This document shows, piece by piece, positions 39,977 to 64,000 of a stretch of DNA of 64,000 nt (position 1 is its first letter; each line of letters opens with the position of its first letter). Where the stretch lies: NCBI GenBank assembly GCA_029891345.1, contig CM056993.1, positions 227,920,424 to 227,984,423 on the forward strand, given 5' to 3'. This stretch comes from Dryococelus australis (lineage: Eukaryota; Arthropoda; Insecta; Phasmatodea; Phasmatidae). The notes below the pieces were generated by a model, which saw only the letters and a program-made list of their open reading frames with translations, ran no database searches and had not been told where the DNA came from. The translations under genes were made by a program, and so were the position numbers.

Positions 39977-40204
39977 AAATATGCAACAGTGTTCTACTGA
40001 TTTATAAAAAATGTGTACATATAAACACAAGAGAAAGAAAAAAATTTCACTTATATTTGAAAAAATGTTTTTTCATTCAATAAAACATCTCAACCAAATA
40101 TATAAAAAAAATTGTATGAAAATATCGAATAATATCTAGTATCTGTAAAATCATTTACATTATACATATAATAAAATAAAAAAATGATATATCATTAGTG
40201 ATAT

Positions 40205-41145: not shown

Positions 41146-41149
41146 TGAA

Positions 41150-41455: not shown

Positions 41456-41584
41456 TTGTTATTATGTCTTTTATTCTTATAATTATCTTAAACTCCAGAC
41501 GACAAAGGTTTGCGCGTCTGAGATAATACTTATTTTTTATCAATATTTTAATATTTTTTAATTATTCAATATTTTTACTTATAA

Positions 41585-41960
41585 ATGAAGATAAAAAGCT
41601 TAAATGTCACTATACCCATTGATCAATTAAGATATTTGGGTATAGATAAATTTTTAACAAAAGAACAAATTGAGAAAAAAAATGAAAATCTGAAAGAAGG
41701 AAACCGTTTTAAACTAACTTTACCATTGCCAACATTGCTAATAATGAAACAGGAAGTGGTTTACATCATGGAGGATTTTTACCAATTTTATTTGCAGCTT
41801 TAGGAGCTCTTGGCGGAATAGCTGGAGGAGCTAGTGTAATCTATAATTATGTTGAAAAAACTAAAAAATAAAAAATAAAAAAGAATTAGAAGAACAACAT
41901 AGACACAGTTTAGAAATAGAAAACAAGGCTGGTAGTGGTGTAGTTGCGAAAAAAAAGAGG
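41585..41960 (+). pseudogene. Polinton A hydrophobic virion-type protein
   Basis: A 60-residue N-terminal part (MKIKSLNVTIPIDQLRYLGI ...) ends in TLPLPTL. A frameshift then leads to a Gly/Ala-rich hydrophobic stretch (LPILFAALGALGGIAGGASV, about 41,779-41,838) and a basic tail with KKKRKAKK (about 41,950-41,973). A hydrophobic segment followed by a Lys-rich tail just before the protease gene suggests a membrane-active or DNA-binding minor virion protein like those processed by adenovirus-type proteases. That role is inference. Confidence 0.5.
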
Positions 41961-41964
41961 AAGG

Positions 41965-42339
41965 CCAAAAAATTAGCTTCTTTTTCTAATATCGATATTG
42001 AAAAATATGTAAAAAAATTAAATATAAAAAATTTCAGAAATAGTTTATATAATTGACGAACTACCAAAAAATATGCTCAAAAATGTATGTGCTGTGGTTA
42101 TTTTGATATTTCAACAAATCCTGGCACTCACTGGGTTTGCTATTTTAAAGAAAATAATAATGTTTATTATTTTGAATCATTTGGTGGCAATTTTCCTAAT
42201 AATTCAATTAATTATTTCAAAAACAGTAATAATTATTACAACGATGATCGAGTTCAGAATTTTGATTCAGTTATATGTGGACATTTATGTTTAATTGTTT
42301 TACACCTTTTTCGAGAAAATTTAAGTTTCGCGATATAAT
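41965..42339 (+). pseudogene. Polinton A adenovirus-type cysteine protease
   Basis: Cysteine protease (adenain-like, C5/C48 clan) that would mature virion proteins. From 42,087 the open frame shows the His block NPGTHWVCYF, the acidic block YYFESFGG (usual Asp replaced by Glu) and the Cys block VICGHLCL. Upstream, NIDIEKYVKKLNIKNF (about 41,991) and a DELPKN block belong to the same gene but are separated by a stop and a frame change. It matches copy B at 49,975-50,345. The catalytic His and Cys are present; the gene is broken. Confidence 0.8.
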
Positions 42340-42352
42340 TTCTATGATATTA

Positions 42353-43365
42353 TTGACAGATATATTTGAGAAACCATTTATCAAATCATTAAATATAAAC
42401 TTGGACAATATTGCTGAAGATAAAAAAATTTTTTTTAGATTCTAAATGCAATTCGAGTGTTTCTTCTTTACAAAGCGAACTGAGCACTTGTTTTGATTTT
42501 ACAAAATCGCATGTCTCATTTTTGGACGAAGAAATGTTAATATAGGCAAACCTGTATATAAAAAAGATGCGAACAATAAAAGATATTTCGATATGTATAT
42601 AACATATTATGCATTAAAACAGGATGTTGATTGAAAATACAAAAGCATTGGTTCTGATTATGTTCTAAAAGAAGATATTAATTTACAATTCAATAACAGC
42701 ATTGCCGATTATATAAAACTAAAAAATAATGCAAAACACACATCAAAATATAAAACTACGGCTTCTAACTATGTATCAAAAAATTATGTAGATTCAAAAT
42801 ATAAAACTATTGTTTCTGATTTTCAGGGGCACCCGAATTTCGCGAAAAGATTTCACGACCTGTTGTATTTCAATACACTTTAGCTCAGATCCACTTTTGC
42901 GATAGGGTGATCTAGTTGTTACGCATGTTAAATGCCTGTCCCCGAATCAGAGACGTACAGTATCGGAGTAACTGAGTTCTTATTGGCCAGTCAACTAAGA
43001 AAATGTTTCTCACAGACAGACGCCGCCAATGAACTAAAGAAAACTGCTGGTACGCTCGTAGAGTATTGAAATTTAGCATGAGCGGAAATCTTTTCGCGAA
43101 ATTCGTGTATACCTACTGACTATGCATTAAAAAATGATATTGAATCAAAATACAACACGTGTTTCTGATTTAAAATCATATGTAGATTCAAAATATAATA
43201 CAATAGTTTCTGCTTTACGACATCAAATAAGTAAAGATTTTGATTACACAACAGAATATGTTTCAATTCAAAATCACATAATTAATAATATTGCAGATGC
43301 TATATACTATTGCTGGAAATGTCATCTACTGTTATGTGTTTATAACTATTTTATTTGATATATTT
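42353..43365 (+). pseudogene. Polinton A fibre-like repeat protein
   Basis: Starts where copy B has ATGACAGATATATTT, but here the codon is TTG (42,353). The body carries 15-residue units of the type DVDSKYNTIVSDLKK (for example SKYKTIVSDF at about 42,797-42,826 and SYVDSKYNTIVSAL at about 43,173-43,214), ending in HQISKDFDYTTEYVSIQNHI. A 292-bp hAT-like MITE with its duplication splits the repeat region. The fibre role is inferred from the regular repeat and its position after the protease. Confidence 0.55.
42824..43115. mobile_element. hAT-like MITE (H2) in the fibre gene
   Basis: CAGGGGCACCCGAATTTCGC at the left and CGCGAAATTCGTGTATACCT at the right are worn inverted ends of the family at 17,414. 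Flanking octamers CTGATTTT (42,816) and CTGACTAT (43,116) look like a diverged 8-bp duplication. The interior (TTAGCTCAGATCCACTTT) matches the 17,414 copy in order. It interrupts a reading frame, so it postdates the Polinton. Confidence 0.85.
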
Positions 43366-46441: not shown

Positions 46442-46524
46442 GTTGGCCAAAGACAAGCAAATTTTCAATTTTTCAAAAATGGTCGTGCAGGATTTGTTTC
46501 ATTTAACAAACAGCAAATTTAGCA
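46442..46524 (+). repeat. Polinton B left terminal inverted repeat
   Basis: TTGGCCAAAGACAAGCAAAT ... GTCGTGCAGGATTTG ... AACAAACAGCAAATTTAGC is the imperfect reverse complement of 62,671-62,755. The shared core is GTCGTGCAGGATTTG. The outermost bases are uncertain by a few positions. Confidence 0.85.
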
Positions 46525-46526
46525 TA

Positions 46527-46622
46527 AAGTAAAATAAATATAAGATAAAATAAAATAAATATAAGATAAAATAAAATAAATATAAGATAAAATAAAATAA
46601 ATATAAGATAAAATGAAATAAA
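46527..46622. repeat. 21-bp minisatellite
   Basis: Four consecutive units of the form TATAAGATAAAATAAAATAAA directly inside the left TIR. The right TIR lacks this array, so it arose after or during divergence of the two ends. Confidence 0.9.
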
Positions 46623-46639
46623 ATATTATATTATAGTTT

Positions 46640-46885
46640 ATATTCCAAGCTCTACTAATTTTTTTAGAACTTCTTCTATATCCTATATTTTTTCATTTAT
46701 TTCGCAAAGTTCATATTTGTCGTCAATGTTTTCTATGAGCGTTAATTGTAAGCTTTGTAAATTTGAATGTAATTTGTAAACCAATTTTTTGAAATTTCAG
46801 ATGCATTATCTAATGTATAGGAAGGTGGCTCACAACAGCTACCACCCTTAAAAATGTTAGTCACACTGCATGGAAGCAAAGACAT
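46640..46885 (-). pseudogene. Polinton B small terminal ORF
   Basis: Reads MSLLPCSVTNIFKGGSCCEP from an ATG at 46,885, then after a frameshift an acidic, coiled-coil-like end (about EINEKI.DIEEVLKKLVELG). It has four Cys in the first 30 residues. It is the first gene inside the left TIR and of unknown function. It may be a small structural or regulatory protein; the family is not recognised. Confidence 0.4.
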
Positions 46886-47099
46886 TTTCATTTCATTAGT
46901 AAAGAAATACATTTATTAAAACATCCCAAAAATTCATAAAAAATTTTAAATGATTTACTGAACGTCTTAAAATTTTTTAAAGGTTCGAAAAGATGTAACC
47001 ATATAACTATACGTCTTAGACTTTGTTTTAAACTATCAAAACTTTTGTTGATTCTTCCATTTATTAATTTAAACAATTTATATATCTTCAGCAATTCTT

Positions 47100-47991
47100 T
47101 TTTTTTCTTCGAATAATCATAAATTAGATTTATTTTGCTAATTGAAACAATATTACAAATTATACCTGCCTCAACAGCTTTATTAAAATCTACACTTATT
47201 TCTATATTGGTTTATACTTTAACTAAGAGTAGTTTTTCTATATAAACAATAATGGTCGTCGCCCCCAAAATAAATAATAATTGATATCAGTTTGAGTGTT
47301 TACAGTTGGTTTAAAATAAAGTTCATTATATATATATATATTAGCTAGTTTTGTTTTTGAATTTCTAAAATCATTATAAGCATGAATCATTTTATTACGA
47401 AGGCCATTTTCATAATCGTGATTCCAATTTTACTTTCAAAAAATTTAATTTCTCCTGTTTTTAACATAAATATTTCTAAGATTACATTGATCAAACATAG
47501 AAGCGTGTACATATTGTTCAGCACGATTTTTTATATTAGTTTGAAATCCTTCAATTTCAAAATCAGGCATGTAAAATTGTAAATTATCAAACTGATCTCT
47601 TATATCAAAGTTAAAAACAGTTGTTCCAGTAGGAACTTCTTTTCTAAAATTGCCAATAATCAGAGCTATAGGCCACATAATTTCTAATTTTTGAATTATA
47701 ATTTTACCTGGATCGACATAGCTTTTCTGAACCACACCATCTGCATTTTTTGTTTTACAAACAAATAAACAATAGTCATCAGACGAATTACGGGGGAAAA
47801 AAAAGAAATTTTATAGTCTCCTTTCCAGTTAATTTCAGTGTTATCGTGAACAAAACCAACAAATACCTCAGAGGATAGGTTATTTCATTTGTTGTATTAC
47901 TATAAACAGATTTTACTCGATATTTATCATCAACACCAGTACATTCTAAATAATTTTGTCTACTTGGTGATCTTAACAAATCGTTCATCAT
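47100..47991 (-). pseudogene. Polinton B major-capsid-like gene
   Basis: Begins MNDLLRSPSRQNYLE, with EITYPLRYL, NWKGDYKISFFF (after a frame change) and KSYVDPGKIIIQKLEIMWP following. A 96-codon uninterrupted stretch (47,445-47,735) has FNFDIRDQFDNLQF, EIEGFQTNIKNRAEQY and ASMFDQCNLRNIYV. After further stops comes YYLFWGRRPL (about 47,265). The FQTN...FDQCN and PL-hydrophobic blocks resemble the C-terminal region of Polinton major capsid proteins (double jelly roll). About 300 codons remain, short for that family, so part may be deleted or it may be another structural protein. Confidence 0.55.
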
Positions 47992-47994
47992 TTT

Positions 47995-48237
47995 TTATGT
48001 TATTCCTGGATTATCAAGAGCCTCAATTAATTTCCATGTTTTGAGAAACGAAAAAAAGTTTGAACAAACATCAATACTATCTAATATTTCATATTTTTCA
48101 TAATTTGGAAAAGGAAAGCCATCTCCTCTAGGAATATCAAATTCAATTATATTATCGTAAAAATTTAAATTCCCCTTAATTTTTTCATTTGGGGGAAAAG
48201 TTTGTCTATCAAAGCTCTCAATACTTCTATAACTCAT
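47995..48237 (-). CDS. Small ORF upstream of capsid-like gene
   Basis: An intact 80-codon frame, MSYRSIESFDRQTFPPNEKI at its start, ending four bases before the ATG of the capsid-like gene region, on the same strand. Hydrophilic, no signal peptide or membrane segment. It has no counterpart in copy A, where the region is deleted. Function unknown. It could be a complete small gene or the surviving start of a longer one. Confidence 0.4.
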   Translation of the reverse strand: MSYRSIESFDRQTFPPNEKIKGNLNFYDNIIEFDIPRGDGFPFPNYEKYEILDSIDVCSNFFSFLKTWKLIEALDNPGIT

Positions 48238-48261
48238 TTAGAAGAAAAAAATTATATATAG

Positions 48262-49292
48262 ATGAAAGATTCAGAGGACATTTCTAGAGTCAAATTACTC
48301 ATCGAAAAATACAGAAATTTTAAAAAGAATCATGAGACAGAATTTGAAAAAAAAAAAAAAAAATAAGAAAAAAGAGCTGCTATTAATTGACGAATTACGA
48401 AATATCGGAAAAAAAAAAAAAGTAGAACAAGGTAGTGAAGAAAATTAAAATTTAATAACTACTTTAGTTCCAGTAGCAATAAAATTTTTGATTATCCACC
48501 AACACCACAAGAATTATCTTTTGAAAGAGAATTATTCTCAAAATCGCCTAATTTAGAAGAGCACATGGGAATTGTACCCATAAAAAATTTACGTGTACGC
48601 ATCTGATTCTACTATAAATCTCGGAAAAGAAATTTAAAAAAATTTGTTAAAGCACTATATGATTTATGAGGATATGAGCATGATTTTTACATTGAAGATA
48701 CAGGAGTAATGTTAAATAATGAAAAACTATTTGTCAAAGGAAAAGAATATGAATTCACAGAATGGCTTTCTAATTTGTTAACAAAAAATTAACAATTAGA
48801 TCTTGAAGGTAACTAAACAGACCATGATTATGAAAATTCACCGAAATTATTTTATCACCAAATGCCGCATTGAAATAATATAAGCCTAATAAGCAAGTAA
48901 ACGCGAATAGAAGTTGGAAAGACAATCATATAATTAAACCAATCTGTGATAATTATATAATAGAATCTAGATCAAGGCCAAACACACCCAAAAGAATGAT
49001 TTCTCCAAGAACTCCTAGATTTAGAGAAGGTATAAAAAATACAATATTTTACCAAGAACATATTTGGAAGACTGATGTTAGAAAATTTATCTACAGATTG
49101 TTAATTATTCACGGCGAAGAAAATGCTGGGAATAAACATTATTACAATGAAAAAGTAAGCATGATGAATATGTTGAGCAATAAATTTTCTGAAATTGTTA
49201 TTAATAATCGAAAAGGAATTCCGTATCTTATAAAAGATTTAAATGTAATTCTGAACATCATGGTAAAGGTATTTATTATAAATAAGGCTTGA
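48262..49292 (+). pseudogene. Polinton B virion-type ORF of unknown role
   Basis: Starts MKDSEDISRVKLLIEKY, then low-complexity Lys-rich sequence, LSFERELFSKSPNLEE, MGIVPIKNLRVRI, KNLKKFVKALYDL-like sequence, DTGVMLNNEKLFVKGKEYEF, and a final 98-codon open stretch (48,996-49,292) with ENAGNKHYYNEKVSMMN and NNRKGIPYLIKDL. The lay-out (a short D..V..N...V.G..Y motif followed by Pro/Arg-rich and helical parts) resembles an uncharacterised conserved Maverick ORF. It is divergent from the capsid-like gene and missing in copy A. Several stops and A-run frameshifts disable it. Confidence 0.5.
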
Positions 49293-49313
49293 AACAAATA
49301 AATTTTATCTGAA

Positions 49314-49588
49314 ATGTATTTGCCTGGTTATAAGTATTGTGGACCATTTACAAAGTTAAACGAAAGGTTCGAAAGAGGTGACACAGGAATAAATAAATAA
49401 AATGAAGCATACAAATATTACAATGTTGCTTATAGAGATCACAAATATCAAGAGTCTATAGACATGAAGTTAACGAGATTATGTTAAATAAAGGTACTCC
49501 AAATGGTGAAAAAATTGCTTCTGTGGCCGTTGCTTCAACTATGTTTACAAAAATCAAATTTGGTTGGAGTATTAAAATGTTTAACTAA
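49314..49588 (+). pseudogene. Polinton B phospholipase-A2-like remnant
   Basis: MYLPGYKYCGPFTKLNERF keeps the YCGPxT Ca-loop block of parvovirus-type PLA2, and YYNVAYRDHKY lies where Cys-x-x-His-Asp should be. Here Cys, His and Asp are all replaced (Y-Y-N-V). A C-terminal part reads ASVAVASTMFTKIKFGWSIK. It is complementary to copy A, which lost the Gly-Pro but keeps Cys and His. Stops interrupt it. Confidence 0.65.
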
Positions 49589-49610
49589 ATATTTTTTTTT
49601 AACTCATAAA

Positions 49611-49960
49611 TGAAGATAACAAATATAACATTCGATATACACATTGATCAATTTTGAGATTTGGGTATAGACCATTATTTAAAAAAAATATCAAATTGAT
49701 AGAAAAAATAAAAAAATTGAAAGAAGGGAAAGCTTTCAAATTAACTTTATCAATACCAACAATCAATATTTTTACAAATTTTATTTTCTGTTTTAGGTAC
49801 ACTTGGTGTTTTAGCTGGTGGAGCTACTGCAATTTACAATTCTGTTGAACAAACTAGAAAAATATATAATTAGAAGAACAACAGCGACATAATATTGCAT
49901 TGGAAAATAAATCAGAAAGTTGCTTAGTTGAAAAAAAAGGGAGACCAAAAAAAATTGAAT
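49611..49960 (+). pseudogene. Polinton B hydrophobic virion-type protein
   Basis: Aligns with 41,585-41,960 of copy A: start MKITNITFDIHIDQF, Lys-rich middle, then in another frame a Gly/Ala-rich hydrophobic run (TLGVLAGGATAIYNSVEQTR) and a Lys-rich tail near 49,935. Lies directly before the protease. Role inferred as in copy A. Confidence 0.45.
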
Positions 49961-49974
49961 ATACCACCATATAT

Positions 49975-50345
49975 CTAATATCGATATAGAAAAATATGTA
50001 AAATGATTAAATATTAAAATTTTTAGAAATGTTTATATTATTGAAGAATAACGAAATAGAATGCACAAAAATGAATATGCTGTGTTTAATTTTAACATAT
50101 CAATACATCCTGGTACTCATTGGGTTTTTTGTTTTGAAGAAAATAGTAATATTTATCACTTTGATTCATTTGGAGCAAATATTACTACTAATTTAACTAA
50201 TTACTTAAAAAACAGAAATGTTTATTACAATGATAATCAAATTCGGAATTTTAAATCAGTTATATGTGAACATTTATGTTTAATGGTATTATCTTTTTTC
50301 GAATGGTTTTTATTTTCACAATATAATTTATTTGTAATTAAATGA
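49975..50345 (+). pseudogene. Polinton B adenovirus-type cysteine protease
   Basis: A 94-codon open stretch from 50,061 holds all three catalytic blocks: HPGTHWVFCFEENSN (His), YHFDSFG (Asp) and KSVICEHLCLMV (Cys). The N-terminal 30-40 residues lie in other frames upstream. Copy A has Glu at the acidic position, so B retains the canonical triad although the gene is 5'-broken. Confidence 0.85.
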
Positions 50346-51467
50346 CAGATATATTTCGGAAACCATTAACCAAATCTTTAAAAAAAAATTTGACACTAAT
50401 GCTTTTGATTTAAAAACAGATGTAGATTTAAAATACAAAACTATTGCTTCTGATTTTAAAAATGGATGAAAATTCAAGATATAAAACTATAATTTCTAAT
50501 TTTAAAAAAGATGTAGATTCAATATACAATATTATAGTTTCCGATTTTAAAAAAAATATGTAGATTCAAAATATAAAACTATTGCTTCTGATTTAAAAGA
50601 AGATTTATATTCAAATTACAATAGTTTTGTTTCTGCTTATGCTTTAAAAACAGATGTAGATTCGAGATACAAAACTGTTTTATCTATTACTTCATCTATA
50701 ATCTCTGTTTATGCAAAAAGCAGGTGTATATTCAAGATTCGATTCTATTGTTTCTGATTATGCAATGAAAAAGATGTAGATTCAAAATACAATACTATTG
50801 TTTCTGATTTAAATAAAGCTGTAGATTCAAAATACGATATAATTTCTTCTGCTTTGCAATATCAAATAAGAAATGTTTTTGCCTATACAAAAAATTTTGT
50901 TTCTCTTCAAAATTGTATAATTGCTTGTTTAGATAACCCTATAAACGAAAAAGATGGATCAAATAAAAGATTTTTTGAGAAAAAAAAATAGTTGATTTTG
51001 CATTTTAAAAGTATGTACATTCTAAATACAATACTATTGTTTCTTATTATGATTTAAAAACATATGCAGATTCAAGCTATAATATTATAGTTTCTGCTTT
51101 ATATGATCAACTCAGTAAAGTTTTGTTTATACAAAATATTACATTTCTATTCAAAATCATAGAATTAATCATATGGCTGATTCTACAGATGGAAAATATG
51201 TGGTCAATGAAAGACTTTTGATAAAGAAATAACTGATAAATTGCAAAATTTAAACTAATAGTTTTGAATTATTGTGTTACACTTGTTAACTCAAAAGCTG
51301 AAAAAAGCAAAGAAGATTCTAATATTAAGTTAGATATTAAATTACAAAATTTAAACCAAACTGCTGTGAATTATTGTGATACACTTGTTAACTCTAAAGT
51401 TGAAGAAAAATCCTATATATTTTATATGCGTGCAAAGTGGGATAAATATTTAAATTTGTTGTCTTAA
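50342..51467 (+). pseudogene. Polinton B fibre-like 15-residue repeat protein
   Basis: ATG at 50,342 (MTDIFRKPLTKSLKK). From about 50,405 a 45-bp unit repeats about ten times; its consensus reads DFKKDVDSKYKTIVS per 15 residues. The unit conserves Asp-x-x-x-Tyr and a hydrophobic pair with 15-residue spacing, compatible with a trimeric coiled coil or shaft. The C-terminal part has two copies of NYC(V/D)TLVNSK. Frame changes are frequent. A receptor-binding fibre is the likely role because it follows the protease in the virion block, but no knob domain is recognisable. Confidence 0.6.
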
Positions 51468-51491
51468 ATAATTGCAATAATTTTATCTCTT

Positions 51492-51701
51492 ATGATCGGT
51501 TCTACTGTCTATAAAATAATGGCTGATGAACCTACTTTATATACTAGTAATTTGGATGTTTATAAGAATTGTAATACAAAAATAGACTACAGTAAGCAGA
51601 TTGATGTTATTGGGCACAGTATTTTAACTTTAAAGAAAAAAAAACATAAACAAGATGGAATGTTGACTACAATAGGTATATTTGTAAAATATAAAGATTG
51701 A
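51492..51701 (+). CDS. Small Polinton B ORF, unknown
   Basis: An intact 69-codon frame beginning MIGSTVYKIMADEPTLYTSN and ending in a Lys-rich region (KKKKHKQDG). No membrane segment or Cys cluster. It lies between the fibre-like gene and the small Cys-containing ORF on the same strand. It could be a real small virion gene or the end of a longer decayed frame. Confidence 0.4.
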   Translation: MIGSTVYKIMADEPTLYTSNLDVYKNCNTKIDYSKQIDVIGHSILTLKKKKHKQDGMLTTIGIFVKYKD

Positions 51702-51722
51702 CTATATATTTTTTACTATTAA

Positions 51723-51860
51723 ATGGAGAATACTTGTTGTTTGAAGTGTAAGAAAATCACCAAAGTAGTAATATAAAATGAAAATACAAAACATGAACTA
51801 TTAATTCAGAAAAATAAAAGTTCTATATGCAATTCTAATAAATTAACAATAAAAATAATG
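51723..51860 (+). pseudogene. Small Cys-pair ORF, Polinton B
   Basis: ATG at 51,723: MENTCCLKCKKITKVV, one stop, then NENTKHELLIQKNKSSICNS. A Cys-x-x-Cys pair near the N-terminus plus a later Cys and a Lys-rich middle suggests a small zinc-binding or core protein of the type often placed next to the integrase in Polintons. Too short to assign. Confidence 0.45.
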
Positions 51861-51869
51861 CCCAATGTA

Positions 51870-54254
51870 AGAGAAGGCAAGAAGAAATTTCCCCAGAAGA
51901 AAAGTAATATCATATGGAATTGATGATTTATAGCAAATTGATCATGTTGAGATGGACACTGGAAATTTAGAAAGGAAAACAAGTATAAACAATATCAACA
52001 AATATACTATGACAATAATAGATTTTTTTTCAAAATATGCATTTGTAATACCTATAAATTATTAAACACCTAAAAATGTAGCAAATTCTTTAGAATGTAT
52101 GTTCATAAAAAAAAAACCCATGTAATATTCAGTGACAATGTGTCAGAATTTTATGTTAAAATATTTATTGAACTTACGAAAAAATATAATATCAATCATT
52201 ATTCTGTATTCAGTGAACTTAAAGCCAGTGTTGTAGAAAGATATAATCGTAAGATGAAGAATAAAAAGTGGGAAAAATATGCATTAAATGGTAATAATAA
52301 ATGGGTTAGTATAATGATGCTGTGGAGTGGGATGGCATGAGGTCAATTGTAAACAGGAAGCAGTAATGACTTGGCGACACATTGGGAAGTCAATTTGACC
52401 ACTGTCATCGCTTGGAAAAAGGGTTGGTTGTGGTTACAAGGATGGTGAACAATTTGGGAGGAGACTGGTTTGGAAATTATTACCTGGTTGGCGCTAGATA
52501 TCGCCATGGTGGCATTAATGATGATGATGGGGTAGAGCTCAAATCTCCTTGGCTCACACGGGGTGCTGCAGGCCGATCATCTGGCCAAACTTTTCCACGA
52601 CGATCTTGCTGCTGATCGCCGTGTACGGGGCCTAGTTTGTTTGTTAAACGAGGGGCTCTTTGGGCAGTCCAATCGCCGCATGGTATAGCATATTATTGAA
52701 AAATGCTTTGATCGGCGCAATCAGACTACCTACTTGTGGACTGTTTGGGCCAACTACAAGCCCATAAATGCTTAACATTAACACTTTAAAATATGCTGCA
52801 GCACACATGAGAATAAATAATCACCCTTGACAATTCACATAACACTTGCATAGAAAATGGCAGGTTTAAGGGTCCGTGCACTGAAATGCCTATCAGCGAC
52901 TGTAATAAAATGCACTTTATCACTACATGCTATGTATTTGGTGACTATACAGTTCCTCCAGGAGAACAACTGACAATGATTGCTCACTTTTAGCCTGCGA
53001 TGAAGGCTAAACTGATAAAAGAGCTTTAAGCTATGTGAACATTAAGTGTGCTGTTGAGTTTACAAACTCCCCAGGCGATGCAATTCCTGGGGTGGCGAGG
53101 GGGAGTATCCTGGACAGCAGGAAACAAAAACCTTCCAAAGATTTATGCTATTGCAGAAGAATTACCGGTTATGAAGAAGTTGAGACTGTCCGGGCAGAAA
53201 ACGCAACCGTGAATCCCATTCCAACCTCCCCCTCTGGCGTGACTTGCTGACTGACTTGTTGCCATGATAGAGGGATCTACTTGCACACGTGGAAGAACTT
53301 CTACTGTTACATTGTGGCAAATGATACTTAAAACCCTGCAGAATCACATGAAACAAATATAACTCCAGGCCTATATCTGTAACATGGTGGAGTAAGGTGG
53401 GAAAAACACTAATGGGGGTTAGAAAAAACATTTATGAAAAACACAACATTGCAAAAACAAAACCACAACTAGTAGCATGAGGGTTTTCCATGCATATCAT
53501 CTCTGCTTCCTGTACATGTGTCCTTTACATATGTCCCAAAAATTCCCTTGAAAATGTTTAAGAACCCTTTTTTATGCATACTACACATATTTGTGTATCA
53601 CTCTGCCCTTGTCCCAGACTGCTCAGCGCATGTGGTGTTGCACCACTTACAGTTTCCTGCACTTGCATTCGCTTGCACTGCTCCTGCACTGCATGCCACT
53701 AAATACACATTCGCTGGTGATAACATGTCGAGTGCAGTTGTGTGCTGCTCTGGGGAACTGGTTGACATGATGAATGGCCTAAGGTGGGGAGCAACACATG
53801 TCAATTATAGATGATTTAGTCAAAGAATACAACAATACAAAACATAGAACTATTGACATGAATCGAATTGAAATAAATTAATATGAAAAATAAAAAAATT
53901 AAGACAACAAGATTTTGCAAATATGTTTACTAAACCGAAATGTAAAGTTCACAATGTTGTCCATGTTAACCAAATAAACGAATTTTTAAAAAGAATGACA
54001 CTTCTAATTGGACAACGGCATTGTTTACTATTTTTGAGGGTTTAAATTATTATGTGCCAACTTACAAACAGAAAGATATCAAGGGAAAATAAATAAAAGG
54101 TAATTTTTATGAATACAAAATTACTGAAACTAACTATCCTAATTAGTATTTGGGTGAAAGAGATTTAAAACCTAAAGGCAATAAAATGAATGCAAAATGG
54201 TTAGGATATACCAATTATCAAAACTTCTCGATTAATAAAACAGAGGTTTTTTAA
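51870..54254 (+). pseudogene. Polinton B retrovirus-like integrase, split
   Basis: DDE integrase that would insert the element and make 6-bp duplications. Core blocks: YGIDDL.QIDHVEMD with the first Asp (about 51,915-51,957), SKYAFVIPI (about 52,035), FSDNVSEFYVK with the second Asp (about 52,130) and KASVVERYNRKMK with the Glu (about 52,222-52,260). A 1,492-bp insertion (52,319-53,810) follows; the frame resumes with DDLVKEYNNTKHRTID (53,811). The C-terminus has DLKPKGNKMNAKWLGY...FSINKTEVF, a chromo-like end, stopping at 54,254. The N-terminal zinc-binding part is missing or unrecognisable. Besides the insertion there are stops and frame changes. Confidence 0.85.
52319..53810. mobile_element. 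1.49 kb insertion in the integrase gene
   Basis: GC-richer than its surroundings and bounded by ATGAT on both sides (52,314-52,318 and 53,811-53,815), a likely 5-bp duplication. It has no evident terminal inverted repeats or poly-A. Open frames inside (for example 53,035-53,250 and 53,518-53,814) have no motif I recognise. The element type is unknown. Confidence 0.75.
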
Positions 54255-54299
54255 TTTTAAATATTTTTCTGTAATTTGTATTTTCAAAATATTATATTT

Positions 54300-55011
54300 T
54301 ATTTAAATGCAATACAATTCTATCGACCACATAGGCTATTTTCAAATCTATTTCATCTGGATTAAATCTTATAAGTTTTATAACTTAATGGAATCTCTAA
54401 ATACTTTTGCCTTTCTATTTTATAAATAGCACCTCTATCTTTATGGTTGAATTCACCACATTCAATAGTTAATTTTAGATCACGAAAATATAAATATATT
54501 TTTAACAGTCAATAGTCTGTTGCTGGTTATAATTTAAATGTTAAAAATATTTAATGATATGGGAGTAATATTTTGTTTCTTTTTTTCATAAAAGTTTATG
54601 TTTAAATTAAGCCAGTTAGAAATATTTTTATCAGTGATTTCTTGGCTGTTCTAGGTTTTGCCAATAGTTGTGTTAATCCTTTTTTATTGATATAAACTGC
54701 TACACCATTATAATATTTATTAAAATTTTTAAGAAGTGCTTTCACTTAATTGCCAGTATATTAATTTTTTCTTTATGATTTTATAAATATTTCTATGGTT
54801 TGCACTAACATGTTTTTTGATTGTGGCTTTGGTATCCTTATATTCTAAAATTTGGGCAATATTTTTTCCTCTAAATCAAGGCTCATTATTAACATATAAT
54901 ACAACAATTCATTTTTCATTAAATTCAAATTATTTAAATTAAATGATGTATCAATACATTACCATTTCCTAGTTTTAAGTTCTCTAATTCTTTAGCTAGA
55001 GATTCAGCCAT
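54300..55011 (-). pseudogene. Polinton B BRO-N-like / endonuclease-like ORF
   Basis: Starts MAESLAKELENLKLGNGNV (ATG ending at 55,011). In a second frame comes FRGKNIAQILEYKDTKATIK, a clear BRO-N (Bro/prophage-antirepressor) DNA-binding block, then VSANHRNIYKI and YYNGVAVYINKKGLTQLLAK. After a decayed middle the C-terminal part reads IECGEFNHKDRGAIYKIERQ and then an Asn-Pro-Asp region. This acidic block looks like the nuclease-like C-terminal domain found with MSV199/BRO proteins in large DNA viruses. A gene of this kind could regulate expression. Frameshifts and stops abolish it. Confidence 0.6.
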
Positions 55012-56200
55012 CTTGTAACTAGGAAAATATGTTTTTATTAATATTCTTTTCAATAAGGAAATACAAAATTCAAGGAAAAATAAAATTAAAGAATAGACCA
55101 AATTCATTGAAAAATGTAGACTTTTGCTGTGTATTTAAAGGCATCCCTTCCATAGGTATACCTTTAAGTTCAGAATATCAACATTTTTAAAACTACAAAA
55201 GGTTTCCAGATGCTTCTATCGTGCCAGTGACCTTCATTATGGGGTTACAAATATTCCTATTGTTCCAGTACCCCAATTTTTTTCACTTTCGAGCCTTATT
55301 TTAGCATCTACAAAACACCAGTGGAGAAACCCCTCACCTCTCCACTTGGCTGGCCAATTTTTTTTTAGTGGAGATGTGAAGGCTTTATTTTATATATTTT
55401 TTAAATTTTTTGGGGTCCCTTTCATATGGTATAGGTGCCTTACACCATATGAGAAACACCAGCCATACTTCAGTTATATTGCAAATGTAGCATTGAGACT
55501 AATTTTCTGGTACTTCAGGTTTACAATTTAATTTGCATCAATACTAATACATTGCTGTATGAGCATGAGCAATGAAATTTTTTTAGCTCAAATTTTGAAT
55601 GACTTAGCTGATAATTTAATAGTGTGGGCACCCTCACATGGTTAAATTATTCTTTTCACTCAGGGATTCGATCCCAGAAATCTTGAGTCTGAAGTTGGAC
55701 GTCTTGCCAACTGAGCCATGGTACAAGATGAGCAAGACGATGATTATAGATCTCTATGTGGCGAGATACTTGACAAGATGATTTTTAATATTCTTATTGC
55801 GAGTCAGCCGAGTGTTCACGGCACCACACCACAGCTATATAGAAGCACCAACTTTTCCCTCCCCCACAAGTAGATAACAACACTCTACACCTGTTTTTTC
55901 CAGTTGCTAGTAGATAGCACAGCAGTCGTGGAAAGAATATAGGGAAAACTCATATACAGTTCACAAGACAGAGTTAGTTTATGAAATCTTTAATCTTGGT
56001 TATGAACTTCCCATTATTCTTTTTTCTATCAAAGCTAATGTCATAAAATTCTTTTCTTTATTCCAACAATTTGCAGAAATCACTTTAAATTTGTCATAAG
56101 TCATGTCCCTACAAATAAAATAAATATAGTATATAAATATATTATAAATAAATATATAATATATAATATATTATAAATTAATATATTATAAATATATTTC
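55012..56200. other. Polinton B spacer with a tRNA-like segment
   Basis: No gene recognised. At 55,657-55,724 (minus) a tRNA-like head appears: ATGGCTCAGTTGGCAAG (A box) and GGGATCGAATCCC (B box). It does not fold into a complete tRNA by eye, so it is more likely the head of a different SINE family or a decayed tRNA. A (TA)-rich tract lies at 56,118-56,206. Confidence 0.45.
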
Positions 56201-56209
56201 AAGTTCATG

Positions 56210-56740
56210 TAATCTTGTCTAAATATACACAGAAAATTCATATTATCCCTTACCAATTCCTTTTGTACTTATGAATCAGTTTGTGTTTAATAAAATACAT
56301 CTGTATTCTTGTGTCGCCGTATAGAAAGATATTCAAGACTCGCATCTTGATTGTCTAAAATGACATCATCAAATACAGCAAAGGAATTATTTTCACAACA
56401 CTCAAAGAGAATCATATCATCATTATTGTGAAAAAAGTAACCAATGTTTGCTTTAAGTGTTTTTGATAACTCATCAAAATCATTTTGGTACTGAATATAT
56501 CTTGGTTGATTTAAACTTTTTGAAGAAACATAGAATTTATAAAAATGAAGCTATCCTGTGTTATAAATGAAATTTATCATCAAATTGGTTTATACATACT
56601 TACTCAGACTTACTATAATTGCTCTTACATTATCAGGCAAACGTTCACCATTATTTTTATACTTCACATTTTGTTTGGTAATTAAAAAACCGAAACTCCA
56701 ATCAATTTTTTCATTTAATAAGCAAATATTTTAGAGTTTA
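56210..56740 (-). pseudogene. Polinton B genome-packaging ATPase remnant
   Basis: FtsK/HerA-type packaging ATPase, which would pump DNA into capsids. Minus-strand blocks: IDWSFGFLITKQ, LPDNVRAIIVSLSKYV (where the P-loop should be; the Gly-x4-Gly-Lys-Thr residues are not intact), TNLMINFIYN, YVSSKSLNQPRYIQYQNDF, the Walker B-like FAVFDDVILDN, and RRHKNTDVFY followed by QKELVRDNMN, the sensor/arginine-finger region. The gene has at least three stops. Divergently placed against the penton-like gene. Confidence 0.75.
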
Positions 56741-56764
56741 TAAAAGGATAATAAAGTGTTTAAG

Positions 56765-57491
56765 TTAACAAACAGTTGTTTTGTACTTAATAAGAAACTT
56801 CCCTATTATATAATTCATCTAAATAAATGGATTGCATTGATTAGTATTCATGCAAAATTTGTATCACCTAATATAGAAAACAATACTATAAAGACAATTG
56901 AAAAATTGAGTGTTGTTGTTCATTAAAATGAAGTTATAACTATTCCTAGATGCCAATATGATATTGAATCGTTAAAAGAAACTATACATTTATTTGTACC
57001 ATTTGGAACTAATAAAATTTAATTCACATCAGACAATGTGAATAACAGAATATCGATTAAATCTAATGTTGATATTAAATTTGGTGACCAATCCTCCAAT
57101 ATTCTTGGGTTTGAATTAAATATGACTGTTGAAACAGAAAAAATTGTGGTAGTACTAACTGGCCACATTTTAATCCCTTAAAAAATATATATGTTTACTG
57201 TAATTTGGCATAGGATATGTTCATAAAATATGATTACTCTAATCATTTAGAAACTGATATAATTGCTACTTTTCAATCAAATATCATGTTGGGTTTTAGA
57301 GAGTATATTATTTATGAGCAGGCATATTCAATTTTTTTATCAAAAATAAAAATGAACAGTTTAATCATATTGTTGTAGAAATTATAAATTGAAAATATAA
57401 TAATAAACAAATTGATTTTAATGGCGCGGATATCGATGTTGTTTTAGAAACTAAAACTGTTAAAAATATTACAGATTTTATGGATCTATAA
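56765..57491 (+). pseudogene. Polinton B penton-like minor capsid remnant
   Basis: Read mostly in one frame: KKLPYYIIHLNKW (where the family has a 'Y-x-I-x-L' strand), NTIKTIEKLSVVV, YDIESLKETIHLF, NNRISIKSNVDIKFGDQSSN followed by ILGFELN, and at the C-terminus DFNGADIDVVLETKTVKNIT ending with a stop at 57,491. The SIKSNVDI...ILGFE block is characteristic of the Polinton penton/minor capsid (single jelly roll). Four or more stops and one frame change occur. It is convergent with the polymerase. Confidence 0.7.
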
Positions 57492-57539
57492 AATGTAAAT
57501 AGAATATAATAAAGAATAAAATAAATATAAAATATTGGT

Positions 57540-59245
57540 TTAGTATCCCCATGGTAATATATCTATAATATTATGTTTTTCATTTGATATCATATGTTTG
57601 CCATAGTTAAAATTAAATTCCTTAGCCATAAACTTATTCACCAAATTTTTTTATTATCTCTTGATATCTTATTGTTTTTATAATCACATTTTTCTTTTCT
57701 TTTTTGTACTAAAACACCCATCGATTTAATATTCAATTGTAAGTAATTTTTGTGATTTAGAGTGAATCCTTTAATTTTGTAACTTGTTTTCCTAAAAATG
57801 TTTTATAACCACAACTTTTTGGCCCTGTATTTATCCAATTTTTACCATAATCTTTTTTTCCAAATAGGTCTGTCCATTCACCAAGCATACAAACTGTTTT
57901 AACAGTATTTTTACCATGTCAATGTAAACTACACTATCTGTATCATAATTTACTACTTTATCACCTAATTTACTAAACATATATTATAATTTTAATTGTG
58001 CATTTGATGTGGTCAAATTTGCTATAAATACATTTGTTGCAGTGATATCTTGTACATTGTAATTATATTAAACTTCAACTTTTTTGTCAATAAAATAAAC
58101 GATTTAATTTATATTTACATTATTGTCCAATAGCAATTCGTATGAACCATGTGGAACAGTAATATATTCTGTTTATATCAAATTTTGTCTCTGTCCACTT
58201 TTCCTGAAAGTGAATGCTTCCCTGGATTTTGTTCAATATTTTCGATGTTTAAATCGATATTTTGTTCTTTTTTTTATAATGCGAATATAATCTTCTTTTG
58301 ATTTATATTCGTATTTCACAAGGGATGCTTTCTAATTTAATTTTCATAAACGTTTTAATATAATTTCTGAACATATTATTACTTTTTGGTTCGAAATGAT
58401 AAACGTCATGTATTTAAAAAATTTGTAACCTTATTCGATAGTTTTATTTAATTCTAATATAATCCATGTTCCATTTAATGCTCTTTTTCCATTACTTTGT
58501 TTACATTCTCCTTTTTTCTGTACAACACATTTTGAACATATAGTAAAAAATATTTTCTGTTGTTTAATTGGTAGTTCTATATGACATAAATTTTGTGGTT
58601 GGTAAATTTTACATTTGCTCTATCCAAACCAATTTTCGTCGTAAATTTTGGTGTTAAATATTTAAATTGAATGACCAACTGGATAATAATCATGAAACAT
58701 CAATGTTGTATGAAAACTACATATATCTATATATCTTAATGGTTATGCTAAAACTTTTAATTTTGTAGCATTTGCTCTAGCACCAAAAAATTTATCTCTA
58801 GGCTGTAATGGTTCTGTTATATTTTTTGTTTTTTTTCTAAATTGTTTTTGTACGAGATCGATTTTTTCCATTTCCCAGCCCATTTTTCCCTTACTTTGTA
58901 ACCATCTCGTCTTAAAATTGTCGTTCGATTGTTTGTTCTAATAAGCAAATCATCCATACTTTCATTATTTCAATTATTTATTGTGTCTGGTGAATAACAA
59001 CCTGGACAACCCTGCCAAAAACAACCATGACATTGATATATTGTTCTAGTTTTATCATCATAATCCTTTGCTCTACAAATAGTAACTTCTCCACTATTTA
59101 ATGCATGTTGAGCATTTGGAAGTGTATTTATCCACGAAATTGATTCTTTACTAAACATTGCTTTTTTATTTTCTTTAACTACAGCAATAGTATCTGATTT
59201 ACGAAAATTTGTATCTATAAACAGCCATACAAATACTCGCTAGTG

Positions 59246-59318
<73 letters not shown>

Positions 59319-61168
59319 ATTGATCGATGTTAGCTATTTCTAGGAAATAGTATTTAAATTTAAGACACCCACGTTGTAAAATATTAACATTAGAATTATA
59401 ATATTCAGGAAGTTATTTTATGAAACCAAAAATATAATTTTTCTTTCACTTTTTCTACATGCCAATTTAAAAAAGTCTTTTTGTGGTTCTTGTTTCATCT
59501 TATTGACACCACAATATTTTGTAGCAGGTATTTTTCCTACATAATTTTGATTATCATGTTTATGAAAAAGTGTGGAAAATATCCTTTTTTAAGATCTTCT
59601 AAACCAAATGTTTTGGAAAATGATGCAAAACTTCCTTGCATAAAGTTTATGCTATCAATTATGTTGATAGCAAGACTCGAATTTCAAGTTGCATAATTTT
59701 TGAGCCTTGATATATTGTTCGAGGTTTTGTGCTGTTTCTATTGTAAAATATAATATCAATCGTAGCCTTTAGAGTTATGCACGATAAATATAGAACACCT
59801 GTTTTCATGATATATCATCCATTCACGAAATTCATCTTTTGTTTCAAAATGTCGTTAGTTACCATTAAAGTTATGAACAGCTTTAGAATTTGGTGTATTA
59901 AAACCACTATCTTGTGTTGCTTCGTAGTAAAAAAAGTAGTGTCTTTCAGTGTTAGAACAATGAAAATACCTCTCATTTTCATTTAAGCGACCATTGCAAG
60001 TACGTTTAAAATGTGTGCATAAACTGTCCCGTTGATGTTCCTTTGTATGTAACAATCATGTTCATCAGTTTTTAAAAAATCCTTACAATTCCTACATTCG
60101 GCATAATATTCGTGTTTTTTATTTCTCTAGGATATTGTGTTACAAATCTTGCACTTATTAGCCGTCTTACATACTTTATCGTGATTACAAAAACATTCCT
60201 GTCCGAAACAATATCTATTACATTTTTGGCAATATATTCTAATACGATTTTCACCTACCCAAACATTTTTGTGTTGTAGTTTTTTGCACAGAGTACTTTT
60301 TTTTTTTCTCGCACGCGTGTTGATATTTATTTTGGTATGGCTTGTCACAAATTTACAATAATAAACACTACCTAAAAATGCTTTCATTCTATTAATTACA
60401 TCGTAATGTTCATTGTGTAAATACAGTTTGTATAATTAATATGAAATGTGCATCTAAAAGAACTTTAATTTGAACATCGAAAAATTTTCTGTACCCATAA
60501 TATCTTCCAAACTGAAACCAATTGCATAACTTTCTTCCTTTTCTAATGTAAATAATTTCTTTATTCCTTAGTTAGCTATCCGAAATTATATTAGTTTCGT
60601 AGGGTAAAGCCATAATTATTGCTCTAGGTCCACATTAATCATCATTATTGTTAATTTCATTTTACATTGTTTTGCTCACATATATTAAGTTTAATTGACC
60701 TTTTGCACCATTACCACTGGGTATTTTCTAAACATCAATATCAAAAGAAGTTTCATTTATGTCTACATTTTCATTCGATGTAATTATTCTTTCAAGTTGT
60801 TTAAGTGAATTTTATGCATTTAAATTATTATTTCATGCAGCTGAAATTACATAATGAAAATTCAGATTATTTGCATCTATTCTCATTTGATCATCTTGTT
60901 TATAATCAATTTTTTTTACTGATTTCATTGTTGCATGAACCGCATTAATTTTTTCTATCGAATTGCCTTGTAAATTGTTTATGCGTATACTGTATTTTGT
61001 TTGCCAAATGTTGAATTTTTCAATTACATTACGGCTAATCTCACGAATTTCGAATAAATTTTTCTTTTCCACGAGCTCATTAAAAATGTTTTGTTTAAAA
61101 TAAAAAAATTTGTTATTTTTTGGTTTTACAAATATCTGATTAGATAAAGGGAATAAATCTTTTAACAC
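57540..61168 (-). pseudogene. Polinton B protein-primed DNA polymerase B
   Basis: Protein-primed family B polymerase that would replicate the element; about 1,200 codons, the usual size. Order from the N-terminus: open stretch 61,168-60,833; CGPRAIIMALPYETN (about 60,640-60,600); Cys-rich zinc region IRIYCQKCNRYCFGQECFCN (about 60,250-60,190); exonuclease-like FFYYEATQDSG (about 59,935, first Asp of Asp-x-Glu replaced by Tyr); HNSKGYD (about 59,780); YQCHGCFWQGCPGCY (about 59,035-58,990); palm motif A region RYIDICSFHTT (about 58,735); motif C YDTDSVVY intact (57,924-57,949); C-terminus ending DILPWGY at 57,542. A (TA)n tract (59,250-59,314) and many stops break it. Confidence 0.92.
59250..59314. 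repeat. (TA)n tract inside polymerase gene
   Basis: About 65 bp of pure AT alternation interrupts the polymerase coding sequence between its exonuclease and CHGC regions, an expansion after the gene lost constraint. Confidence 0.9.
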
Positions 61169-61779
61169 TTTTAAAATTTCTTTTTGTTATTTTATAACCT
61201 GAAAAGGGTAAGCGTGTAAAATTATTCCTAATTTTTTATTATCTTATATTTTTTATGATTATTTGAATTTGTAAATAATGCTTGAAATTAAATCTACTTT
61301 CCTTAAACATTACCAATTTTTATTTTTAATGCTTTCCTTATAGTTCCCAAATCATGCACTCTCATTGCACACAGATCTGTTATTGAGTTTTATGTAGTCA
61401 TATTTAATTGTTTGATTTATAAGAAAACTAATTTAATAAGACTACAAAAAAATAAACACTAAATTAAAAATATACAAAAATAAGAAATATAAATTATTAA
61501 AATCGAGCAAGAAATTGATAATTTATTAATTTATAAGAATTCAAATTTAATAAGAAATTAAAAAAATAAAGATAATAATTTTAGCTATATAATTTCTTGT
61601 TATGGACAATATTTGTCATTATAAATTTTTTACGTAATTTTGTATGTTTGTCCTTAGCATTTTTACTAAGAGAAAATAATTTTACTGATTTAACCTCACT
61701 GCACACTTAACATGTTTTTGTTGGGTAATTGTCATTTCGAATTTCATTTAGATTATCTAGTAGTAACATATAGCGTCTT

Positions 61780-62145
61780 TCAGTTTCTTTGTACTTTTTG
61801 AGGTAAGCACTTCAAATATATTTTTTTACGTTCGCACAACATTTTCTCACTAAAACACTTTTTACATTTTGCTGTGTGATTGTCAAAAGTCGCTTTATGG
61901 GGATAAAATATAGGTATTGATTTAGTCTCATTACATGATATGCACGTCTTAGTTGAATAATCACAATGTCGAAATTCATTTGTTCTGTGTAATTTAGTAT
62001 TTTTATGAATTTTGAGATTATGATCATCCACGTTCACATAGTACGTTCTGTTTTTTTTTTTATGCCTTACAACTTCTATCATATTCTCTATAACATTTTG
62101 TACAGGTACTAATATGCTTATCTTTTGTATATTTATGTGATGCAA
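61780..62145 (-). CDS. Zinc-ribbon-like Polinton B ORF
   Basis: A 121-codon open frame. After a basic N-terminal half (VVRHKKKNRTYYVNVDDHNL) it shows STKTCISCNETKSIPIF and HTAKCKKCFSEKMLCE, i.e. two Cys-x2-Cys pairs about 27 residues apart, a four-Cys zinc-ribbon pattern. It lies between the polymerase start and the right TIR on the polymerase strand. Its start may be later than the first Met. It could be a small DNA-binding regulator; the function is not known. Confidence 0.5.
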   Translation of the reverse strand: MHHINIQKISILVPVQNVIENMIEVVRHKKKNRTYYVNVDDHNLKIHKNTKLHRTNEFRHCDYSTKTCISCNETKSIPIFYPHKATFDNHTAKCKKCFSEKMLCERKKIYLKCLPQKVQRN

Positions 62146-62314
62146 AATTTTATATGTTTAATATTTCAACATATTTCGTTATTTTCCATTTCCGAGCATC
62201 AATTATATTTTTTAATTTATAATAAAATAAATTTTATGCAGCGAATTTTTTTATAATTTTAAATAACCATTTTTGTTTTTTTATTAAGTTTGTTTCATTT
62301 ACAAATAAACAAAT

Positions 62315-62568
62315 ATGGAATATCTGCTCAAAATATTATATAATTCCTTTGAATTCACTACACTACAAGATCTCGATAAAGATAAATGGATTACTGCTAC
62401 AGAATTTCAAATTTATGAATCAAAATTTGGTATAATAAAATTAATTGTATTTTAGATAGTAAGTATAAAATTTCATTAACAGAGTGCTATGTGAAAATAA
62501 TTGATAAAAATTCTTTGAAACTACTAAATGAGAAGGAAGTTTTTATAGAAAAAAGTGGCTTAAAATAA
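62315..62568 (+). pseudogene. Small ORF next to the right TIR
   Basis: ATG at 62,315: MEYLLKILYNSFEFTTLQDL, then ITATEFQIYESKFG. After a frameshift comes DSKYKISLTECYVKIIDKNS with a short Lys-rich end at 62,568. The alternation of beta-type segments around a Lys-Phe-Gly turn could be an OB-like fold (single-strand DNA binding), but this is speculation. One frameshift and an in-frame stop. Confidence 0.4.
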
Positions 62569-62670
62569 ATTAAAAATTGAAAATTTTTACATGATATAGA
62601 GTTCTCTTAAAATTATACGTACAATTTATATGAATATTTCATTTGATTTAATATTAGATTTACTTGAATT

Positions 62671-62755
62671 TAGCTTAAAATTAGCTGTTTTTTAAATTGA
62701 CGCAAATCCTGCACGACAATTTCTAAATAATTGAACATTTGTTTGTTTTTGGCAA
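62671..62755 (-). repeat. Polinton B right terminal inverted repeat
   Basis: The reverse complement of TAGCTTAAAATTAGCTG ... CAAATCCTGCACGAC ... TTTGTTTTTGGCAA pairs with 46,442-46,524. Identity is highest over CAAATCCTGCACGAC. The outer boundary may extend a few bases. Confidence 0.85.
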
Positions 62756-64000
62756 TTTTTTGGTCATTTTTAATGTTTTTTTGGTCTAAATTGGGTTTGT
62801 CCTCGATCTATACTACTATCTACTTGTGGGGCAGCACGCCGAGATTTGATAAAATGTGGGAGTATGTTTTTCAGCGTTTACTTTATTTATTTATTACTGC
62901 CGATACAAGAGAGGAGACGAACTGGTGAATGGTGGATTGTGCTAATATGCTTACGAAATGTTTGGGCAAGTAGATAAAGGTAGAATAGTGTTGTTGTAGT
63001 AGTTTGCCATAGTAGCAGACCTCGCAAGGTGTTTTGTTTTATTTATAATATTTGGCTTGGCACCATGCAAAGTTTAATCGAGTTACTTCCGTGTTTTGAG
63101 AGGCTGAATTTTGCAACCAGTCGTTTACTTAGCATCTGTCAGAGTCTGCGGACCCATCTACCCTTACCCCTGTTGCTTGGTAAATACAGCTGTTAACCAC
63201 TCACTTCTTCGTTTATTAAGTTTTAAGTATGCGTGCTTTTGGAAATATTTTACGATAGCATTCTTCAATTGAGTTAGTTTACACTAGTTATTTAATCGCC
63301 ATGCTTCCGACTTTAAACTTTTAGGGAATCTTTTAATTTGCGTACAGCGTTTGTTTTATGTACGACGTACGTTTGATATGATTTATTGACGCGCCTCCTA
63401 TCAGTTACAACCAGACACGCAGCGCGTTTTCACAAATGAATGTTTACAAAGCGTGCTTATTATACTGCTCCTGACCTCGGGTATTGGGTGTCTTTGCTAC
63501 ATTTGAAGAATTCTCAGAATTTTTTACTTCGTTTTCTCAGCGTTACTCGGGGTTCATTGAACATTATATGTGGTCAGGACGACTGATATGAAAGTGCGCC
63601 AGGGCCCCGAGCCAAGAGTTGATGTGTGGAGTTGGTGGAGAGCTTATGACAGGCGGAAGTTTGGGCGATTGTAGGGCATCGAGCGAAACACAACGATCGA
63701 GAGGAGCAACGAGTGGCGCTCGAAGTGACCAGAGGGAGGAAATAGCAGTGAATATTATGACTGCAGGCTGAATTATTTGACTGGGTACGTGAATGAGACA
63801 AATTACAAATAATGGCAACAGATAGACTGAATATATTTCAATGATAAGTATGAGTTAGTTGTCTATAACCAAACAGGTACATTCATAAGGCCGTCAAATA
63901 GAGTTGAAAAAGACATTAAATGTTGCACTCACTGAGAAATAGAAAGCGTAATAGTGGAAGTAGATATATTAATACTGTATATAACAGCTGTGAAATAAAT
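62756..64000. other. Right flank; possible Copia-like pol end
   Basis: At 62,931-62,973 one frame reads MVDCANMLTKCLGK, reminiscent of the end of Copia-type RNase H, followed by AGGTAGAATAG then TGTTGTTG, which could be a worn polypurine tract and LTR start. Nothing else supports an LTR element in the window. Overlapping open frames at 63,564-63,818 are motif-free. Confidence 0.25.

Follow-up and report, generated by a model that had tools for sequence, protein, structure and literature searches.

We analysed a 64,000-nucleotide window of the Dryococelus australis genome (contig CM056993.1, positions 227,920,424 to 227,984,423 of the forward strand) and found in it a defunct Polinton/Maverick, of the insect type and close to full length. 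This element, hereafter copy 1, runs from 46446 to ~62817 and belongs to a family that was amplified in one old burst and then decayed; we place the probability of this joint reading at roughly 0.9. Copy 1 is assigned to the Maverick/Polintons because its size, its inverted repeats and the genes it carries agree with theirs, which upholds the identity proposed in a first-pass annotation of the window. The element alone would be ordinary because Polinton fossils are common in arthropods, and Mavericks are among the transposons present in all arthropods investigated in PMC6327564. What sets the family apart from ordinary Polinton fossils is the estimated size of its burst and the apparent coupling of its polymerase and end types.

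The inverted repeats of copy 1 (46446–46562 and 62634–62753) align with a local score of 116, against a maximum of 46 among 1,000 Markov-simulated pairs, and differ at 18 mismatches in 116 gap-free columns, bearing out the terminal repeat match reported earlier. In the genome assembly (3,415,067,245 bases, 646 contigs) the inner repeat arm recurs at 84–91% identity in at least 39 other places (40 of 481 candidates scored), which were examined as sister stretches of 10 kb (20, L011–L030) or 2.6 kb (19, L031–L049). Long interior matches to copy 1 occur in 17/20 of the 10-kb stretches, and L012, L014 and L025 match copy 1 near its right end alone. Inverted partner arms lie inside the stretches of three shortened copies, L013 (7.2 kb), L014 (2.7 kb) and L023 (6.2 kb). 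An exact 15-base core of the repeat occurs 148 times genome-wide (reversed control, 2), and the 100 places listed include nine pairs of cores within 20 kb, all inward-facing, copy 1 among them. The terminal inverted repeats are paired in other copies; the first-pass annotation had named the absence of such pairing as grounds for dropping its reading. From the nine double and 82 single hits, and if two arms are kept independently (chance of an intact core ~0.18), we obtain a rough estimate of ~280 elements for the listed 100 places and ~410 when scaled to 148 cores, assuming survival of both arms. Matches to the polymerase profile PF03175 number at least 54 across the genome at E ≤ 0.001 (91 of 6,288 candidates scored), with none in 14 control genomes.

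The ends of the element had been put at 46442 and 62755, and these must be revised. Sister copies extend outward beyond both positions, and the right arm of copy 1 tracks their continuation to ~62811–62828, with ACTACT at 62812–62817. The right end is uncertain by ~10 bases, with alignments to L022 and L028 extending to 62828. A candidate target duplication, TTGGCC/TTGGCA at 46.44/62.75 kb, was rejected as these positions are not element ends. The sister copy L023 bears AGTAGT at both ends, and its flanks, TCTATC and TCTATT, agree at 5/6 bases, a level reached by 1.1% of random 6-mer pairs. Just outside the right end of copy 1, 62817–62834 is inversely resembled by 18 bases at 55859–55876, which may be chance.

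The body of copy 1 is AT-rich, with a GC content of 0.235–0.249 outside two richer blocks and of 0.311–0.391 in the flanks. The first richer block (44% GC, ~52.3–53.8 kb) is a nested insert of ~1.49 kb that splits the integrase gene, which corrects the first-pass annotation; that annotation also missed a second Polinton copy nearby (copy 2). The insert is missing from 9/9 sister loci holding both flanks; there the flanks are separated by 1–11 bases, and none of the nine matches the insert. Because all nine read straight across the insert point, the block is, judged by these loci, a later insertion into the gene, and copy 1 without it measures ~14.9 kb. The second block (38% GC, 55.1–55.95 kb) had been considered another nested insert on account of its GC content and a box that looked tRNA-like on visual inspection. 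This was rejected: the block belongs to the element because 55.19–55.69 kb is common to sister copies. ARAGORN found no tRNA in it.

Genes were examined in 98 window pieces of at least 30 aa, chosen by hand from the presumed coding strand, with a few low-complexity pieces and 62.2–62.6 kb omitted. Seven Pfam families were matched at E ≤ 0.01, the best being Bro-N (6.9e-5), DNA_pol_B_2 (1e-4) and a PLA2-like domain (1.7e-4), as against none for 64 opposite-strand pieces from 46.6–55.0 kb. Matches to Citrate_ly_lig (5.9e-4), Ubiquitin_3 (6.4e-4), DUF6617 and DUF7791 are likely chance; the first two are implausible, and a lone E-value near 1e-3 is therefore weak evidence here. We also scanned 20 open reading frames (ORFs), unmended, from sister copies. 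A double-jelly-roll major capsid protein is predicted by one of two capsid-position ORFs, L027:1038-1574:-, which matches PF21738 DJR-like_dom above the curated cut-off (1.3e-6, 28.3 bits, cut-off 27) and aligns to the window piece 47791–47994 at 55% over 65 aa. The other, L026:8391-8804:+, gave SNaCT8 (0.006) as its sole match, and the capsid window pieces had no Pfam match. PF08398, the PLA2-like profile, is likewise exceeded in a sister ORF (L021:551-856:-; 9.4e-14, 51.9 bits, cut-off 23.9). The first-pass annotation had listed two capsid-type genes, of which the double-jelly-roll capsid stands and the second is probably the CAP with a PLA2 domain, for which copy 2 gave an Adeno_PX match below cut-off (0.0024).

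Profiles also point to an RVE integrase, matched at the integrase position in L021:3310-3783:+ (rve 1.1e-5, 26 bits, cut-off 32.6; no match in L028:4125-4442:-), and to a protein-primed type B polymerase (PolB), supported by the window match and by DNA_pol_B_2 at 0.034, below cut-off, in one sister ORF (L027:9134-9427:-). Several of the families predicted in the first-pass annotation, which would have yielded to profile searches matching none, were thus found in window pieces and sister ORFs. In its gene list polymerase and integrase are retained on profiles; the ATPase and protease of copy 1 are weakly supported, the former by Pox_A32 in L022:7507-7818:- (6e-4, 19.8 bits, cut-off 22.8; no A32 match in L011:3866-4249:- or L013:1657-1932:-) and the latter by motifs alone. 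Among the sister copies, none of the expected families was matched by the protease ORF or by three ORFs of module II (see below), and the remaining ORFs gave nothing or implausible weak matches. Searches of PDB sequences returned no credible match, and protein database searches with short pieces no candidate. Structure models of protease and capsid pieces (mean pLDDT 47.7 and 33.0) were not used.

Ten motifs that we take to be diagnostic were written as patterns once translations had been read, that for motif C being too strict. Copy 1 contains seven, not one of which appeared in 400 shuffles, and window 1–39,499 is free of all ten. Missing from copy 1 are motif C as written, Walker A and the protease motif Q-C-G-H. 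Of the presumed protease motifs, PGTHWV occurs in copy 1 and Q-x6-C-G-H in copy 2 alone. The genes survive as fragments: open pieces reach at most 117 aa (polymerase zone), 88 aa (integrase), 97 aa (protease) and 87 aa (ATPase), compared with 1162, 310, 133 and 228 aa for the same genes in Spodoptera frugiperda (Sf) Mavericks (PMC5803895, Table 2). Differences between copies 1 and 2 number 87, 81 and 117 by codon position over 392 codons (p = 0.02); for the protease frame, comparing 12 copies in every pairing gives 0.167, 0.120 and 0.205. This third-position excess suggests past coding constraint in sequences selected for protein similarity, with pairs that are not independent. From its capsid and packaging genes, copy 1 may once have been virion-forming.

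Several observations weigh against this identification. No window piece of copy 1 exceeds a curated Pfam cut-off, and the sister ORFs matching rve (one of two) and Pox_A32 (one of three) fall below theirs. The protease has no profile match in window pieces, copy 2 or the sister ORF, and no penton profile was matched by any window or sister piece scanned. The left arm ends at 46446, the outer left repeat that sister copies have being lost, and AGTAGT lies outside the repeat core in 2/41 ends scanned.

Two kinds of polymerase zone occur in the family. Module I (~57.56–61.6 kb) is found in copy 1, L011, L027 and L042, and module II in L013, L015, L016, L019, L020, L021, L026, L029, L030, L047 and L049; no locus matches both when trimmed queries are used. 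In a tblastn search of copy 1 PolB pieces against eleven zones, L011 and L027 were the sole matches. Module borders are imperfect: untrimmed queries give matches as long as 310 bp at the edges, and a short stretch at 61.1–61.4 kb is common to copy 1, L020, L023, L030 and L047. Pieces of the L021 module match L001–L008 (best 3.5e-25 among the matches listed), which are the best PF03175 loci in the genome (77–86 bits). Because the copy 1 polymerase has no match there, module II is by sequence similarity the polymerase of another lineage than module I. Both module types have the inner repeat and the zone at 61.6–62.6 kb in common.

Outside the inner repeat there are two outer-repeat types, A and B, set from exemplars picked by eye (A: L013, L016, L024; B: L014, L018, L023, L028) with self left out. 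The 39 loci and the two ends of copy 1 make 41 ends, of which 37 were typed, 24 as A and 13 as B; L021, L047, L049 and the left end of copy 1 were untypable. Most typed ends have no PolB zone within the fetched stretch. With untrimmed queries the 13 doubly labelled ends comprise eight A/II, four B/I and one B/II (L023, 310 bp), so that 12/13 agree (p = 0.007). Queries trimmed to the core leave 12 such ends, eight A/II and four B/I (12/12, p = 0.002). The trimming was decided post hoc, once the L023 exception had been seen, because the module I locus L042 likewise gave an edge match of 268 bp. Backbone distances within and between types are 0.190/0.196, 0.188/0.186, 0.200/0.198, 0.236/0.241 and 0.212/0.211 in five regions, differences reached by 60, 708, 639, 195 and 496 of 1,000 label shuffles.

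On linear genomes, protein-primed polymerases initiate at the extreme termini. We tentatively propose, at slightly under even odds, that the polymerase gene and the outermost repeat, which are separate blocks, underwent joint replacement while the virion-and-integration backbone stayed constant. They might have been exchanged jointly since they must fit each other, an idea we hold with similar reserve; a matched exchange would be the expected outcome of a recognition constraint because protein-primed synthesis begins at genome ends. Two features speak against the proposal: it draws on 12–13 ends and eye-picked exemplars, two or three of which are themselves in the tabulation, and the capsid region is borderline between types. 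A competing explanation, somewhat doubtful but deserving attention, is that the association marks two descent lines with no functional link. The sample is small enough to allow this, and both blocks could stem from one exchange event and then have been inherited. Simple descent without exchange is insufficient, however, because the backbone is unseparated by type in 4/5 regions although the blocks are not adjacent. If joint replacement is true, the outer repeat would be the cognate replication origin of the polymerase, and Polintons would evolve by exchanging matched polymerase/origin pairs, both subtypes having been amplified in the same burst.

In a tree built from 12 copies, end branches measure 0.08–0.16 (median 0.12) and not one of nine inner branches reaches the support mark; from this star shape we derive the single burst. 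Half-distances calculated from the divergence between the two arms of four copies are 0.053–0.116; at insect substitution rates of 3e-9 to 1e-8 per site and year, these would date the burst very roughly, with wide error, to 10–40 million years ago. It is also conceivable, though we consider it unlikely, that the copies derive from repeated germline entry of an infectious adintovirus-like virus and not from transposition of a resident element. Such a virus would account for the capsid, PLA2 and packaging-type genes, and the excess of third-position differences is a hint that coding was constrained before the copies decayed. The star tree and an estimated ~400 near-equally diverged copies nevertheless fit amplification within the genome at least as well, and scans of viral contigs revealed no free viral relative.

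Copy 2 yielded no terminal repeat. Its 39 best other places in the genome are 82–87% identical and copy 1 is not in the 40 scored; for this reason copy 2 was most likely inserted independently. The 40 places found with the repeat and the 40 found with copy 2 have none in common within 20 kb, the lists being compared by eye. The two copies share an orientation and lie 3.1 kb apart, as a local duplication would leave them, but their p-distance of 0.20–0.22, the closer relatives elsewhere and their failure to group in the tree (one without strong forks) make such a duplication very improbable. The least tenable explanation, that an inverted repeat arose by chance or artefact in an AT-rich region, could appeal to the window pieces all falling short of Pfam cut-offs, yet the repeat score, the clean opposite-strand control and the sister copies oppose it and paired repeats across the genome refute it.

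Features of copy 1 and copy 2 in the window (. = no strand)
Feature	Position	Strand	Basis or remark
Second Polinton copy (remains of capsid, CAP, protease and repeat genes)	40007..43309	+	Internal deletion
Left terminal inverted repeat, inner part alone	46446..46562	+	Outer part of sister copies gone
Putative major capsid protein gene (double jelly roll), broken	47058..48237	-	Sister ORF profile
Conserved ORF, function not assigned, broken	48262..49289	+	Pieces matched in sister loci
CAP-type gene: PLA2-like domain, then glycine-rich hydrophobic stretch	49302..49986	+	PF08398
Putative adenain-like cysteine protease, broken	50052..50342	+	Presumed motifs
Gene with ~45-bp (15-residue) repeats	50395..51220	+	Fibre-like role a guess
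Probable RVE integrase, first part	51777..52313	+	rve 0.11 in window; presumed motif
Nested insert in integrase, type not assigned	52314..53807	.	9/9 sister loci without insert; GC 0.443
Probable RVE integrase, remainder	53808..54251	+	Sister loci continuous across insert point
Bro-N domain gene, broken	54605..54958	-	PF02498 6.9e-5, 23.8 bits, cut-off 25.6
Putative A32/FtsK-type packaging ATPase, broken	56003..56730	-	Pox_A32 in sister, below cut-off
Probable PolB, module I	57560..61600	-	PF03175 1e-4 at 59540-59683, below cut-off; presumed motifs
Cysteine-rich, zinc-type ORF, common to both polymerase modules	61584..62157	-	PHROG matches
Right terminal inverted repeat, outer part type B	62634..62817	-	End motif ACTACT 62812-62817

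Among the remaining genes, the conserved ORF beside the capsid gene had no Pfam family in two sister ORFs scanned. Repeats of 15 residues, of the type VDSKYKTIVSDL, are found in both copies (50395–51220 and 42606–43302); a pattern drawn from them has 10 matches, and none in window 1–42000. The product is perhaps a fibre-like or coiled-coil virion protein. The cysteine-rich ORF matched the PHROG families Lar-like (5.9e-6) and endonuclease VII (0.0021). Plus-strand pieces at 56744–57375, between the ATPase and polymerase zones, are conserved across sister loci and possibly represent an unrecognised gene, with no Pfam match in two sister ORFs scanned. Elsewhere in the window, ~510 bp between both Polinton copies (44604–45116) match their own reverse complement at 77%, resembling a fold-back or MITE-like element. 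A dispersed repeat family, 78–83% identical, lies at 6046–6474, 22400–22821 and 25443–25861, and long TG and AT microsatellites lie at 8626–9250 and 18606–18972, the AT array holding a near-perfect palindrome (97%, 18620–18761).

By analogy with Polintons, the living ancestors of this family would have replicated as linear DNA, with protein-primed synthesis starting at the terminal repeats. An A32-type ATPase would have loaded this DNA into double-jelly-roll capsids, and an RVE integrase would have carried out its insertion; we infer these mechanisms, and the virions, from that likeness. The family itself expanded in an old burst to an estimated several hundred members, since decayed, of two replication subtypes with a common backbone: in one, PolB I goes with type B outer ends (as in copy 1), in the other PolB II with type A. 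An estimated several hundred near-equally diverged dead copies with two polymerase subtypes offer a natural data set on the end requirements of protein-primed polymerases.

Among known systems, Bidnaviridae have a segmented ssDNA genome, a parvovirus-type capsid and no integrase. Membership in that family was rejected for copy 1, an integrated DNA with terminal repeats, a probable rve integrase and a double-jelly-roll capsid. Nematode Polintons (Jeong 2023) reportedly combine one family body with two pPolB types; co-variation of pPolB with the outer repeats is not known to be part of that work. One backbone with either of two PolB genes, PolB type tracking outer-repeat type, appears to be new here, to the limited extent that such coupling was searched for. 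Copy 1 shares size, pPolB, RVE integrase and PY-type capsid with Polintons as described in PMC4028283, and differs in that the penton PX was not identified and protease and ATPase are weakly supported. Bro-N genes are mentioned for some polintons (PMC12721341). Among the closest systems are Sf Maverick 1 and 2 of Spodoptera frugiperda (PMC5803895), which share POLB, INT, a CAP with a PLA2 domain and the ATP and PRO genes that are weakly supported in copy 1, so that this type of CAP in insect Mavericks is already published. They likewise form two related lineages per genome and have a weak endonuclease VII match near POLB. They are reported without the PY (double-jelly-roll) gene present in the Dryococelus australis family, and their gene order and strands are unlike those of copy 1, which is broken throughout. 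Vertebrate Mavericks (PMC8097293) share terminal repeats, capsid, integrase and polymerase, and carry an (AGT)2 end motif with 6-bp duplications, of which L023 gives a possible instance here (5/6). They have a two-module gene order and usually few copies (mean 22, median 8), unlike this family, although up to 287 are known in axolotl. Large Polinton bursts in two vertebrates are called perplexing in the same article (PMC8097293), and the Dryococelus australis family bears on how animal genomes acquire them.

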